Assembly (NCBI GenBank): GCA_030645915.1
Contig: JAUSNO010000017.1
Span: 124,001-188,000, forward strand
DNA: 64,000 nucleotides
Source: Undibacterium sp.
GTDB taxonomy: Bacteria > Pseudomonadota > Gammaproteobacteria > Burkholderiales > Burkholderiaceae_D
Reading direction: 5' to 3'
The notes below the pieces were generated by a model. The model did no database searches. It saw only the letters and a list, made by a program, of their open reading frames with translations, and was not told where the DNA came from. Below are positions 13,651-46,417 of the stretch, in pieces. A program made the translations under genes and the position numbers. The number at the start of each line of letters is the position of its first letter. Positions within the stretch are counted from its first letter, which is position 1.

Positions 13651-13710
13651 ACGCAATATCCATGCGGCTTGTGGCAGCATTTAGGCTTGAAAGGCGCATG
13701 GATAGTGCGC
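13651..13710. repeat. Dispersed palindromic element, copy 1
   Basis: Arms ACGCAATATCCATGCG (13651-13666) and CGCATGGATAGTGCGC (13695-13710) pair at 14 of 16 positions around a 28-bp loop. The same arm sequences recur in five other places in the window (15839, 17710, 22343, 23563, 46355). Position just after uvrA suggests mRNA 3'-end stabilisation or termination, but no T-run follows. Confidence 0.7.
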
Positions 13711-13756
13711 AATAGGTTTTTAATAGGTTTTAAATTTCAGTGAAATCGAACGGTGA

Positions 13757-14128: not shown

Positions 14129-14722
14129 ATGTCCATCCGACTAATAATAGGCCTAGGCAATCCAGGCCCAGAATACGAACAAACCCGCCACAACGCCGGC
14201 TTCTGGCTAGTCGATCAGCTCGCTAAAAACGGCTTGCAGCGCGACAAAAATTTCAACGCACTGCTCGCCAAAGTAAAAATCGCGGCGGAAGACGTCTGGC
14301 TGCTGCAACCGCAAACCTTCATGAATCGTTCTGGCCAGTCAGTCGGCGCGCTCTGCCGCTTTTACAAAATCACGCCGGATCAAATCCTGGTGGTGCACGA
14401 CGAACTCGATCTGCTGCCGGGCGTTGCCAAGCTGAAAAAAGGCGGCTCGTCCGGCGGCCATAACGGCCTGAAAGACATCACGGCGGCACTCGGTACGCAG
14501 GATTACTGGCGCCTGCGCATAGGCATAGGCCATCCACGCAGCCTGAACCTGAATCAGGGTGTGGCTGATTTTGTCCTGCACCGGCCGCGCAAGGAAGAGC
14601 AGCCTTTGATCGATGAAGCCATTGCCTACAGCCTGGATATCATCCCGCTGATGGTGGAGGGGAATTTCAACGAGGCGATGCTGCGCTTACATACTAATGC
14701 CAACGGCAACGCGTCAAAATGA
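14129..14722 (+). CDS. pth: Peptidyl-tRNA hydrolase
   Basis: Recycles peptidyl-tRNA released from stalled ribosomes. The 197-residue protein has the standard N-terminus [20 protein letters not shown] with catalytic His21, the FMN segment holding Asn66, and HDELDL with Asp94, matching E. coli Pth residues His20, Asn68 and Asp93 in order. The stop codon overlaps the start of the patatin-like gene (ATGA), so the two are translationally coupled. In most Betaproteobacteria pth lies next to ychF; here 6.4 kb of other genes separate them. Confidence 0.96.
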
Positions 14723-15822
14723 GTTCGCCACTACAAATACATGCGGGGAAAATTGCGCTGGCGCATATTCGCGAACATGGTTTGCAGGCCAGGGATATCG
14801 CCGTCATTCCGGCAGCGGCGGGCGGCCCCAAGGGCTTGATTTTGCAAGCGCTGGATCAATGGATCTTTGGCGAATGGCTACCGAAGGCACCGCGTGAGCG
14901 CAGCCTGATCGGTGCCTCGATAGGTGCCTGGCGCATGGCGGCGGCCAGCCATGCCGACCCGGTGGCGGCGTTCCAACGACTGGGCGATTTGTATTGCGGC
15001 CAGCGCTATCCGGCCAAACCCAGTCCGGCGCGCGTCACCGAAGAAATCCACGGCCTGCTGCAACATTTTATCGCCGGGCACGAACACGAGATCGTCAACC
15101 AGCCACAACACCGTCTGCACGTGCTGGCAGTACATGGGCGCGGCCTGCTGCATACGCCGCAGAGCGCGCTGGCCAGCAAACTGGGATTCACGGCAGCGGC
15201 GCTCGCCAACATCGCCTCACGCGACTATCTGGCACGCCACATCGACCGAGTGGTGATAGGCGACAGGCGCGACTCTCTGCTGTGGATGAAAGATAAATTC
15301 GATGATTTCAAGACGCATTTCGCTACCCTGACCACTGACAATCTGCTGCCCGCCCTGCTGGCATCGGGCACGCTGCCGCTGATCATGCAACCGGTACGGC
15401 ACATCGCCGGTGCGCCCGACGGAACGTACTGGGACGGTGGCATCATCGACTACCACCTGGCCTTCCCCTACTCCCGTCTGAACGACAGCACACAAGGCAA
15501 TCTGGTGCTATACCCGCACTTCACCGATCACATCATCCCAGGCTGGCTGGACAAGGCGTTGCCGTGGCGCCGCGCCGGTAGGGGCAAGCACGCTCACTGG
15601 GTCGATAACGTCATCATGATTTCGCCGTCACCTGCGTTTGTGCGCACGCTGCCGCGCGCCAAGCTACCCGACCGCAAGGATTTTTTCTACTACGGCGTCA
15701 ATCATGATGAACGCATCAGAAACTGGAAAATCGCCATGGCCGACAGCGAACGCATGCGCGATGCCTTTGCGGCATTTGTCGCCAAACCGGATCTGTCGCA
15801 GGTCATCCCTTTAAATTTCTAG
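14719..15822 (+). CDS. Patatin-like phospholipase family protein
   Basis: Serine hydrolase of the patatin/RssA type, probably a lipid acyl hydrolase. The 367-residue protein shows the Gly-rich oxyanion segment AAAGGPKGL (residues 32-40), the nucleophile elbow GASIG with Ser67, and the second catalytic residue in DGG (Asp239). No signal peptide is seen, so it should act in the cytoplasm or at the inner membrane face. It starts in the stop codon of pth. Its last eight codons (ending VIPLNF) lie in a 112-bp segment that is repeated at 17668, downstream of the histidine kinase. Confidence 0.85.
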
Positions 15823-15908
15823 CAGGCACGTGGCCTGACACGCTATGTTCATGCGGGTTTGCGGGCACATCGTGCCAGTAGGCGCATGAATAGTGCGTGC
15901 TGGCATGG
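15797..15908. repeat. 112-bp direct repeat, left copy (contains patatin 3' end and palindromic element)
   Basis: Begins CGCAGGTCATCCCTTTAAAT inside the last codons of the patatin gene and ends at CTGGCATGG. The segment at 17668-17779 repeats it with about six substitutions and no indels. The copies start 1,871 bp apart and bracket a MITE-like element, the PAS histidine kinase and a gene fragment. Confidence 0.92.
15839..15899. repeat. Dispersed palindromic element, copy 2
   Basis: Arms CACGCTATGTTCATGCG (15839-15855) and CGCATGAATAGTGCGTG (15883-15899) form an imperfect stem. The loop contains GGCACATCGTGCC, which can form its own small hairpin. It lies just after the patatin stop codon, inside the left 112-bp direct repeat. 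Confidence 0.75.
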
Positions 15909-15925
15909 TGCCTTTTTAAAAACAA

Positions 15926-16106
15926 TTAACCCAGATTTTCCATTAGGATTTGCGCTGATGACGGATGCACTTTTCGAGATAGTTTTGATGCGAATGAGGC
16001 GCCAATAGCTAGCTATTGGCAACGAAGAGCCGCAAAAGTAGCCGAAAATGCGCCGTCAGCACGCCAATAGCACCGCAGGTGCGCCTAATGGAAAATCTGG
16101 GTTTAA
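15926..16106. mobile_element. MITE-like element upstream of the histidine kinase
   Basis: Terminal inverted repeats AACCCAGATTTTCCATTAGG (ending at 15947) and its perfect complement (starting at 16084) enclose about 136 bp. The centre is a perfect 20-bp palindrome GCCAATAGCTAGCTATTGGC at 16001-16020. The outer flanks are TTAA on the left and TTTAA on the right. No coding capacity is seen. The overall plan and the central palindrome resemble the element at 42229-42396. Confidence 0.7.
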
Positions 16107-16236
16107 TGCCTACGGCAAAAGCGCAGCGACGATTGCGTGCTGGCATGTGTTGTTGCCGACATATAAATTTGTTTACCCTGCGCAATTTTTGTCCAATCCA
16201 GGTCTATGATCACACACCTGGGCAGCGGAGCGATCA

Positions 16237-17490
16237 ATGGATACGACCAAGCGATTTCAACATCTGGAGGTGGACGAGTTTTTAACCTCTCTCGATTTTC
16301 TGCCTATCGGCATGAGCATCGTCGACACGCATTTACAGCTGCGCTACTGCAATACCGCATTTATCGAACTCCTCGATTTCCCCGAAAACCTGATCATCCC
16401 CGGCATGAGCATGGAAGCCTTGTTTCGCTACAACGCGCAACGCGGCGACTATGGTCCTGGCGATGCCGACGAACAGGTGCAAAGCAGGATGGCACTCTCG
16501 GCCAAATTTGAACCGCACCAATTTACCCGTACCCGCGGCGACGGTCGTATTCTTCAAATCATCGGTCGCGTGATGTACGACCAGGCGGGCCAACCTATCG
16601 GCTTTGTCAGCCTATATGAAGACATTACCAAAGAAAAAATCTACGAACAAAAACTGGAAAAGCAGCATCAGGAGCTCAGCCTCGCATACGAAGACCTGAA
16701 GCAAACCCAACTGGCGCTGTTGCAAGCGGAAAAAATGGCCACGGTCGGCCATCTGGCCGCGGGTATCGCGCATGAGATCAACAACCCTATCGGTTTTGTC
16801 ATCTCTGGCGAAAATGCGCTGGAAGGCTACCTGAACGATTTACTCAGCCTGGTCGCGCATTATGAACAATTGGAAACGCATTATCCCGAGCAATCTCGCC
16901 AGCTCATGCAAAGCAATAAAGACCAGGTGGAACTGGCGCTGATCCGCGAAGATGCGCCCGCGCTGCTCAAGGAAATCCGCCATGGCTTAACGCGCGTCAA
17001 GGAGATCGTCGGACAGCTCAAGGTATTTGCTTTTGACCAGCCCAATCAGACAGCGGCAGCCGACCTGCGAGAGGTCGCTGACCGTGCGCTGGCCATCGCC
17101 GTCCACGGGTTTGGCCAGCAGATCAGCATACACAAAGACTACGCAGAGATCCCGCTGATACAGTGCAGCGCCGGCGAACTGGCGCAAGTATTTCTGGCGC
17201 TCTTCAGCAATGCCGGGCAAGCCATCTCAGGCGCGGGGCAAATCAGCATCAGGATCGCACAACAAGAGCAGAGCGTACGCTGCGACATCAGCGATACCGG
17301 CAGCGGTATCAAGACGGAACATCTGGCGCATATCTTTGATCCCTTTTTCACCACCAAAGCGGTAGGCAGCGGCACCGGCATGGGGCTGGCCGTGGCCTAC
17401 AACAGCATCAAGCAGCAAGGCGGAAAAATAGAAGTGAAAAGCACGCCCGGCCTGGGCAGCTGCTTCAGCATTTTTCTGCCCTTGAGTTAA
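16237..17490 (+). CDS. PAS-domain sensor histidine kinase (orphan)
   Basis: Soluble two-component kinase of 417 residues. A PAS domain occupies about residues 15-135 (NAQRGDYGPGD and the exit motif VSLYEDITKEK), followed by a short coiled coil. The HisKA segment MATVGHLAAGIAHEINNPIG has phospho-acceptor His179. The HATPase domain shows the N box LALFSNAGQAI, G1 DTGSGI and G2 GTGMGLAVAY. There is no transmembrane segment and no adjacent response regulator. GGAG lies 8 nt before the ATG. The gene is bracketed by 112-bp direct repeats and preceded by a MITE-like element, so it may be a late insertion at this locus. Confidence 0.9.
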   Translation: MDTTKRFQHLEVDEFLTSLDFLPIGMSIVDTHLQLRYCNTAFIELLDFPENLIIPGMSMEALFRYNAQRGDYGPGDADEQVQSRMALSAKFEPHQFTRTRGDGRILQIIGRVMYDQAGQPIGFVSLYEDITKEKIYEQKLEKQHQELSLAYEDLKQTQLALLQAEKMATVGHLAAGIAHEINNPIGFVISGENALEGYLNDLLSLVAHYEQLETHYPEQSRQLMQSNKDQVELALIREDAPALLKEIRHGLTRVKEIVGQLKVFAFDQPNQTAAADLREVADRALAIAVHGFGQQISIHKDYAEIPLIQCSAGELAQVFLALFSNAGQAISGAGQISIRIAQQEQSVRCDISDTGSGIKTEHLAHIFDPFFTTKAVGSGTGMGLAVAYNSIKQQGGKIEVKSTPGLGSCFSIFLPLS

Positions 17491-17546
17491 ATGTGTTTAT
17501 TCTTCAGCCCGGGCTGAATTCGCGCATATCTGTTACCGACAAAATC

Positions 17547-17672
17547 TTAGATTTGTATCGTTTGCGCCTGCGTTGATTCCGCCAGCAAGATGCGGGTGAA
17601 TCTGAGAGCGCCTTTGCCCGTATGAATAGGCGTTTTGGTGGCGAGCGTAGCCTCAAGCTCGGCGATGCGCAG
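17547..17672 (-). pseudogene. 3' fragment of an unidentified minus-strand gene
   Basis: Reading right to left from the edge of the repeat at 17668, about 40 codons stay open and end at a TAA (17547-17549). They include IAELEATLATK, HTGKGALRFTRILLAE and STQAQTIQI. The composition is protein-like, but there is no start: the frame runs straight into the duplicated patatin tail. The GKGALRF motif faintly recalls the C-terminus of DUF1801/YdhG-type proteins, which is only a guess. It is probably the stump of a gene cut by the event that made the 112-bp duplication. Confidence 0.35.
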
Positions 17673-17779
17673 GTCATCCCTTTAAATTTCTAACAGGCAC
17701 ATGGCCTGACACGCAATGTCCATGCGGGTTTGCGGGCACATCGTGCCAGCAGGCGCATGAATAGTGCGTGCTGGCATGG
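17668..17779. repeat. 112-bp direct repeat, right copy
   Basis: Second copy of 15797-15908. It still contains the final patatin codons (now ending in TAA instead of TAG), although no patatin gene lies in front of it. It also contains palindromic element copy 3 (arms at 17710-17726 and 17754-17770). Confidence 0.92.
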
Positions 17780-17837
17780 CGTGTTTTTAGGTTTCACGCA
17801 GACCTAATCGATGCTGCCTGCAACTACCTCGTTGAAA

Positions 17838-18170
17838 TTAGGTGACACGACCAAGATAGAAATAGGATGACGTCACAGCAACCAGAATTGGTACAACAAG
17901 AACTAAAACTGGCGCCAAACCTTCGTTAAGTGTAGAGGAGGTCCACGGAAATGGAAGTGCTGCGAGGAGCACAATGCTCACAGCAGAAGCCAAGAGAATT
18001 GCCCAACCACAGAATTGATTAGCACGGTACCAGATGCCGGTGTCAGCTAGCGTGCGAGCTGTCCGAAACCCGTAGATTCGGTTCGGGGGAACCCACTTGA
18101 AAATAAGTGGCAGAGCGACAAGTGCCAGGACGGACGACGTAATTAGTAGTTGCAGAGTTAGAGAAGTCAT
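17838..18170 (-). CDS. SdpI-family membrane protein
   Basis: Small inner-membrane protein of 110 residues with three hydrophobic helices. The signature PPNRIYGFRTARTLADTGIWYRANQFCGW between helices 1 and 2 is diagnostic of the SdpI/YhfL family (named after the immunity protein for the Bacillus SdpC toxin). No toxin gene is adjacent, so an immunity role is not supported here. The ATG at 18170 was chosen; a TTG just upstream is less likely. AGGATAGATTG precedes the start. It stands alone between the repeat region and the RHH gene. Confidence 0.8.
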   Translation of the reverse strand: MTSLTLQLLITSSVLALVALPLIFKWVPPNRIYGFRTARTLADTGIWYRANQFCGWAILLASAVSIVLLAALPFPWTSSTLNEGLAPVLVLVVPILVAVTSSYFYLGRVT

Positions 18171-18267
18171 CAATCTATCCTTGAATATTTAACAAAATTG
18201 AGGCACCCGCATTTGGTTTGGTCAACTGCAACATAACTGTATGATTCATTTTAGCCCAAATGACAGC

Positions 18268-18453
18268 TTATTCTTTACTGTCAGGATCAGCCGCCTCCGG
18301 CAGCTTGCGGCCGCGCTGCTGCAAGGCCTGGCGCAGCAGATATTCGACTTGCGCATTGGCGCTGCGCAGTTCCTGCGCCGCCATGCGCTCTATCTCGGCC
18401 CACAGGACGGGATCGATACGCAGGGGGAAGGATTTTTTACCCGGGCTAGCCAT
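18268..18453 (-). CDS. Ribbon-helix-helix (Arc-like) DNA-binding protein
   Basis: Sixty-one residues with the RHH pattern: a beta strand [12 protein letters not shown], then helix [13 protein letters not shown] and helix [16 protein letters not shown], followed by a short polar tail. Such proteins dimerise and bind short palindromic operators. It starts 30 nt after the stop of the SPFH gene on the same strand, with no promoter visible between, so the two form an operon. It is a candidate autoregulator of that operon, whose promoter contains a 12-bp perfect palindrome. A toxin-antitoxin role is possible but no toxin-like partner is present. Confidence 0.75.
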
Positions 18454-22342: not shown

Positions 22343-22402
22343 CACGCACTGTTCATGGGGGTTTCCAGCCACATGCCTGAAAACCCGCATGGATAGTGCG
22401 TG
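22343..22402. repeat. Dispersed palindromic element, copy 4
   Basis: Arms CACGCACTGTTCATG (22343-22357) and CATGGATAGTGCGTG (22388-22402) pair with few mismatches. It lies between the convergent ychF and GNAT genes. Confidence 0.7.
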
Positions 22403-22451
22403 CTGGCGGCATGATTTGATTCCAGGTTTAACTGCTGGCTCAGGAATTAGT

Positions 22452-23359: not shown

Positions 23360-23777
23360 AGTTCTTGGCGCCTAAAGTGATTTAATTTTCATTTTGCAAA
23401 GATAACCGAGCAAGCCCAAATAGGCAATTTGTTTTAAATTTCTTGAAAGTCGCACGGATATCGTCTTTGAGCCGGGTACGATTATTATCAGTGAGGCAAA
23501 AGGCGATACCATGCGCAGCCCTTTGGATGCATCGGCTTAAATTCTCAACGAATGCCAGGCCCGACACGCAATACCCATGCGCCTTGCAGGCCAGATAGGC
23601 TGGAAAGGCGCATGGGTATTGCGTGTCAGGCTTGCCTAGTTTTTTATTTCTTCGATCGTATCGCCAGATAAACATGACTGGACCAGCCACCCGCATACTA
23701 ATGCGGTCATCACCGAGCCACGATAAAGCGGTAAGATATGCTCTTGTCATATTCGCAAACTAAAGCCCACTTCTGTC
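23360..23777. other. Gene-poor stretch between the small membrane protein and the MOSC gene
   Basis: No gene is supported here. A plus-strand frame of about 38 codons ending at 23540 (with EPGTIIISEAKGDTM) looks protein-like but has no start codon, so it may be a 3' remnant. A 122-codon minus-strand frame reads through the palindromic element and is rejected. The main feature is palindromic copy 5 at 23563-23627. Confidence 0.5.
23563..23627. repeat. Dispersed palindromic element, copy 5 (perfect 23-bp stem)
   Basis: Arms GACACGCAATACCCATGCGC... at 23563-23585 and their exact complement at 23605-23627 form a perfect 23-bp stem around a 19-bp loop. It is the best preserved copy in the window. 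The loop core CAGGCCAGATAGGCTG is shared with the copy at 46355. Confidence 0.9.
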
Positions 23778-46354: not shown

Positions 46355-46417
46355 ACACGCAATGCCCATGCGCCTTACAGGCCAGATAGGCTGTAAACCC
46401 GCATGGATACTGCGTGT
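46355..46417. repeat. Dispersed palindromic element, copy 6
   Basis: Arms ACACGCAATGCCCATGCG (46355-46372) and CGCATGGATACTGCGTGT (46400-46417) pair with a few mismatches. The loop shares CAGGCCAGATAGGCTG with copy 5. It lies between the divergent rfaE2 and glutathione peroxidase genes, so it is not confined to gene ends. Confidence 0.75.

Follow-up and report, generated by a model that had tools for sequence, protein, structure and literature searches.

Integrated elements that carry att repeats in the 3′ ends of genes regenerate the gene's 3′ end within direct repeats. The locus analysed here lies in a 64,000-nucleotide stretch (the window) of the draft genome of an Undibacterium species, which is assembled in 39 contigs. 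In this locus, direct repeats containing the 3′ end of a patatin-like gene bound an insert, as they do in a site-specific integrated element. In contrast to att-integrated elements, no integrase was found in the segment, relatives do not share the site, and the repeat includes a dispersed sequence family. This family consists of short palindromes present in tens of copies, as in extragenic palindromes of the REP/BIME type; such palindromes have a RAYT transposase as partner, whereas in this genome there are only candidate Y1_Tnp genes with no established link to the palindromes.

Two further described systems resemble the locus. In Campbell-type single-crossover integration of circularised DNA with trimmed ends, the insert lies between direct repeats that duplicate part of the homologous locus, as it does here (PMC3240628). 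Of 60 clones from an E. coli experiment, 56 yielded the PCR product that marks partial duplication of the homologous end; 109-950 bp were duplicated in the 14 clones that were sequenced, which is explained by one crossover of a molecule that had been trimmed and had closed into a circle again (PMC3240628). The present case differs in that it is read from sequence, with a joint that lies in a gene fragment and has a short match. The second system, homology-facilitated illegitimate recombination (HFIR), uses homology on one side and a short-match joint on the other, a combination that this locus may have (PMC3240628). The inserts average ~1 kb, and in competent species the joint mostly contains 3-10 bp; of the four E. 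coli clones assigned to HFIR, three lacked homology there (PMC3240628). HFIR is described there as generally leaving a deletion of recipient DNA, whereas a duplication is found here (PMC3240628). Judged by title and opening of the abstract, none of the few papers listed for Undibacterium palindromes, for REPs of Burkholderiales associated with insertions, or for natural transformation in Undibacterium was relevant.

Results

The patatin tail is duplicated

The features of the locus are as follows (window coordinates, strand, identity).

14719-15822, plus strand: patatin-like gene, intact, 367 aa (Pfam PF01734)
15797-15918, plus strand: copy A of the repeat, with the last patatin codons, stop, spacer and palindrome
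15839-15905, plus strand: core of the REP-like palindrome in copy A (nhmmer model of 19 copies from this genome, excluding A and B)
15930-16101, no strand assigned: MITE-like element with inverted ends CCCAGATTTTCCATTAGG, 172 nt with the ends included, no long ORF, TTAA-like flanks
16134-16154, plus strand: possible relic of a palindrome right end (14 identical nt by repeat search, below the nhmmer threshold)
16237-17490, plus strand: sensor histidine kinase with PAS_7 and HATPase_c domains, 417 aa (Pfam)
17547-17681, minus strand: 3′ remnant of gene X, apparently shortened internally, cut at copy B
17668-17789, plus strand: copy B of the repeat, a putatively displaced patatin tail with palindrome
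17668-17681, no strand assigned: overlap of X homology and patatin tail, the candidate short match at the joint
17838-18173, minus strand: SdpI family gene (SdpI/YfhL; Pfam and genus comparison)
18268-18453, minus strand: small conserved ORF, near patatin in the loci of 16 of 26 relatives

By repeat search and alignment, copies A and B are 93% identical over 122 nt, with a spacing of 1871 and zero indels, and identity falls to the background level beyond both ends. The original prediction, that 15797-15908 recurs at 17668-17779 without indels, holds for the recurrence; these 112 nt contain five substitutions instead of about six, and the repeat extends to 122 nt, with eight mismatches and no identical run longer than 29 nt. 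A whole-genome search with the copy A region matched copy B at E 1.2e-47, which rules out a chance likeness. Copy A consists of the last seven patatin codons (QVIPLNF) with two bases of the preceding codon, the stop TAG, a spacer and the palindrome; copy B has the same seven codons and the stop TAA. Related patatin genes end similarly, for example at locus L038 (genome G010). An assembly artefact, to which a draft of 39 contigs is open, is extremely unlikely: such artefacts usually yield identical copies, but A and B differ at eight sites and their flanks are unrelated on both sides.

The repeat had been described as a patatin end plus a palindrome. Both parts are present, but only the left 42 nt (seven codons, stop and spacer) are specific to the patatin end, since the palindromic part belongs to a dispersed family. 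Among the 42 matches listed, the left 42 nt were seen at A and B only: besides these two, no listed match extends into query positions 1-23 (window 15790-15812), and just one starts before query position 34 (at 24). With 17488-17700 as the query, the one other place in the genome where the patatin tail was found is 15797-15829, if a 16-nt match at E 0.77 is set aside. The confinement of the tail to A and B therefore indicates a true segmental duplication, and the reading of the repeat as just two members of the palindrome family was dismissed. The polarity of the differences is mixed, since B has the commoner base of 19 other family members at 15844 and 15849 and A has it at 15909; thus, neither copy is simply the older one.

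The palindrome family and its predicted folds

The palindromes, whose consensus arms are GCACGCACTATCCATGCG and CGCATGGATAGTGCGTGC, are of the REP/BIME type in being palindromic and dispersed in many copies. With A and B counted, they occupy at least 40 places in the genome (of 195 candidates, 40 were scored; two of the 42 listed matches are the opposite strand of others). The nhmmer model built without A and B found six copies in the window, at 13651-13714, 15839-15905, 17710-17776, 22343-22408, 23565-23627 and 46356-46416, three of which are absent from the 42 listed matches. Three window palindromes sit directly behind, respectively, an ORF which we take to resemble uvrA, the patatin gene and the SdpI gene. 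Right before the kinase, 16134-16154 may be a relic of a third palindrome copy.

For copy A, the predicted fold is a single long hairpin (-52.8 kcal/mol, z -5.2) that has an outer stem and runs out into a U run. The predicted fold of copy B differs through changed outer bases and has lost the outer stem (-49.8 kcal/mol, z -4.1), so that the complete predicted hairpin with its U run is retained in copy A and not in copy B. On these models, the palindrome behind the patatin gene is probably its terminator, and copy A may have been kept in that role.

Copy B could also have arisen if a REP-type palindrome was mobilised, perhaps by a Y1 transposase, together with ~42 nt of patatin tail and landed in gene X. 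The dispersed family, with A and B among its at least 40 listed places, and the three Y1_Tnp matches in the genome speak for this. Nevertheless we consider it improbable: the patatin tail is absent from the other listed palindrome copies, and the 5′ part of X, which has a single match genome-wide, was not found beyond copy B. Within ~1.5 kb of the Y1_Tnp genes, moreover, the first has no palindrome motif, the second has one weak match, and the third, itself a partial match, has one clear motif ~0.8 kb away and one weak motif.

Content of the insert and its right flank

The kinase is the sole long ORF between A and B. No Pfam model for HisKA matched it at E 0.001. Its closest relative in the genus is 66% identical and lies at an unrelated locus of G026, with no shared flank; with this relative among unrelated neighbours, the kinase as a cassette moving with its flanks was dismissed. 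Among 294 genomes drawn from the family, searched at E 1e-100 with six candidates scored per genome, the kinase was found in this genome only. To the right of copy B, the SdpI gene is private to this genome among 43 genus genomes, save for a 37% match elsewhere in G041, and is probably a second foreign gene at the same variable site. The small ORF at 18268-18453 carries an RHH label by appearance, without a Pfam match.

A MITE-like element had been placed between the copies. It is present, at 15930-16101, as a multi-copy element of 172 nt that has near-identical copies in this genome and in relatives; its copies are ~70-98% identical in many Undibacterium genomes, among those listed. All seven other copies compared (four in this genome and one each in G032, G008 and G001) have the same kind of ends, and the element shows the terminal inverted repeats, small size, lack of a transposase and high copy number of a MITE. 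Five of the seven are flanked on both sides by a TTAA-like sequence and one by TTCAA, while one has unequal sides. We take the MITE beside copy A to be independent of the tail duplication.

Integrases and the att-site question

The original prediction had also likened the arrangement to what circles leave when they integrate at att sites, which here would be the 3′ end of patatin. The regeneration of the gene end by direct repeats is what such an event would produce, and within the genus sample SdpI is rare, as are kinases of this type. However, no recombinase was found among the long ORFs between the copies, where the kinase is the only one, and the search, which covered recombinases of the tyrosine type (Phage_integrase), found no such gene in the window; an enzyme acting in trans would be conceivable. 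All four Phage_integrase matches in the genome are outside it, the nearest on the same contig ~54 kb beyond its left edge. In addition, a second tail downstream is missing from all 30 further patatin loci compared (26 relatives and 4 records duplicating these; 284-5997 nt searched), six of which contain just 11-15 nt tail matches there. Because no tyrosine recombinase lies in the window and no other patatin locus compared repeats the tail, site-specific integration of a circle is not supported. The eight differences in 122 sites between A and B and the position of the joint, inside a broken gene X and not at the end of an element, also speak against it, and we regard it as very unlikely.

The patatin locus in relatives

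Patatin loci were compared for 26 of the 42 other genus genomes; matches in G039 and G040 were left out, and the other 14 had no listed match. The flanks examined behind the gene ranged from 284 nt (G034) and 631 nt (G032) up to ~1.6 kb, and within them neither the kinase nor SdpI was found behind patatin in any of the 26. Alignment with relatives had been proposed as a check, with a single-copy patatin-repeat-SdpI order as the predicted sign; SdpI being private to this genome in the genus sample but for the 37% match in G041, that order has no counterpart to be compared. Four relatives (G034, G014, G035 and G016) do have a single palindrome and no kinase in the flank, and in G014 the order patatin, palindrome, small ORF, SPFH is uninterrupted. 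The distance from the patatin stop to the palindrome is 21-93 nt in three of them and 154-217 nt in G016, while the remaining 22 have none at E 0.01 in a flank of up to 1.5 kb. Judged by its gene order, the G014 locus appears to be the nearest thing to an empty site. An insertion at the patatin 3′ end with a doubled tail is thus retained from the original prediction and its att circle is not. Across the content of 18 of the 26 loci and the named records, other relatives carry different ORFs or none; because the ORF content differs among loci, the site behind patatin is variable.

In trees, the patatin of this genome groups with those of G014 and G016 (support 100/97), and that of G032 forms a long, unplaced branch apart from it. 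The pth genes of this genome and G032, on the other hand, group at 94/79, slightly below the star threshold. No claim is made for a patatin transfer into this genome, whose own patatin goes with G014 and G016, the one from G032 being the long unplaced branch.

Gene X and the joint

Ahead of copy B, the original prediction had seen a truncated frame of another gene. The fragment is there and is the 3′ part of a minus-strand gene, which we call X; because the homology is on the minus strand, a plus-strand gene in this frame was dismissed. The remnant is 68% identical over 31 aa (window 17565-17657) to the C-terminus of a 178-aa orphan ORF of G032 (L030:69-605), which lies directly behind patatin and convergent with it. 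Gene X was found in two of the 43 genus genomes, this one and G032, and in each it follows patatin in antiparallel orientation, an arrangement that suggests an allelic origin. Since the patatin and pth groupings disagree, the adjacency of X and patatin in both genomes may not reflect simple shared ancestry; the trees suggest that the G032 patatin is a replaced allele beside gene X.

Among the 294 family genomes drawn, X was found in this genome alone, and in this genome the remnant is the single X match. Phages and plasmids gave no match at E 1. X had no convincing match in Pfam or PHROGs (best PHROG E 0.055), and the best Pfam match of the remnant was a coiled coil at E 0.13. By eye, the G032 protein contains two similar C-terminal segments, LSDQQILDIAHSGK.. 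and LSDEKIVKIAHATK...

At the joint, a further stretch of 14 residues, RDDLRIAELEATLA, gives a gapless alignment with X residues NDAIRIIELEVALA and extends 14 nt into copy B; the joint therefore resembles a short sequence match of gene X with the tail of patatin. None of 5000 residue shuffles equalled this alignment, and the DNA identity of 26/42 was reached in 3 of 2000 triplet shuffles; both counts are optimistic because the tested segment had been chosen by eye beforehand. Compared with G032 X, the remnant lacks ~89 residues between two matched parts, so it may be shortened internally or may come from a shorter X variant. Because these residues are missing and the ancestral bases at the joint are lost, the short match could be partly coincidence.

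Discussion

The arrangement is explained by known recombination routes. We put at about an even chance that foreign kinase DNA was added by an ordinary homologous crossover together with an illegitimate joint in gene X, which displaced the resident tail. The ancestor would have had patatin, its tail, one palindrome and the downstream genes. A donor fragment, derived from this locus in a close relative, would have carried patatin tail, palindrome, kinase and part of gene X. On the first side, homology within the 3′ end of patatin would have made the join; on the second, the join would have been illegitimate, at the short sequence common to gene X and the patatin tail, approximately GATGACCTGCG on the minus strand. 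The fragment may have closed on itself at this short match and then integrated through one crossover, or it may have annealed there in linear form. Both variants would leave an intact patatin gene, copy A, the cargo, a cut X and the displaced tail with palindrome as copy B, and the MITE would be a multi-copy element inserted beside copy A.

Several observations are consistent with the crossover and illegitimate joint. The genome has no other tail duplication among the 42 matches listed (the one 16-nt match at E 0.77 apart), G014 has the uninterrupted order, and four of 26 relatives have one palindrome and no kinase in the flank. Homology to X also reaches into the first part of copy B, where the candidate short match may mark the joint. 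The genome also has a ComEC-like competence gene, which is circumstantial for DNA uptake. Against the model, a donor genome with patatin tail, palindrome, kinase and X was not found among the relatives compared, and the visible homology of 122 bp is a short substrate for RecA, unless the donor had further patatin sequence in common. The deletion that HFIR usually leaves, its E. coli joints without homology, the discordant patatin and pth groupings and the 22 of 26 relatives that lack a palindrome in the flank searched also weigh against it.

The main rival, which is possible but rather unlikely, is a tandem duplication, at the short match, of the unit from patatin tail to mid-X, followed by deletion of most of the second unit. 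It would start from a lineage that already had patatin, tail, palindrome, kinase and X, and would leave only the tail and palindrome before SdpI. It accounts for the same joint with the same short match and makes a donor unnecessary; palindromic repeats are plausible deletion ends, and copy B ends near the right end of its palindrome. On the other hand, it requires two events, kinase DNA does not recur to the right of copy B within the window, and the X remnant is the sole X match in the genome.

A further reading, which is a long shot, makes the patatin tail with its REP-like palindrome an attachment site for mobile cassettes, at which a recombinase or RAYT encoded elsewhere inserts circles and rebuilds gene ends. 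If it were true, the variable content behind patatin across Undibacterium would be that of a cassette site.

With the crossover and illegitimate joint as the preferred reading, the locus would be a natural case in which a small variable segment that brings no mobile element along enters a bacterial genome. The traces left at the locus are the doubled tail of a neighbour, a passenger gene cut at the joint and a displaced copy whose predicted hairpin is incomplete. When a dispersed palindrome is part of the repeat, direct repeats that regenerate a gene end are insufficient to identify an att site.
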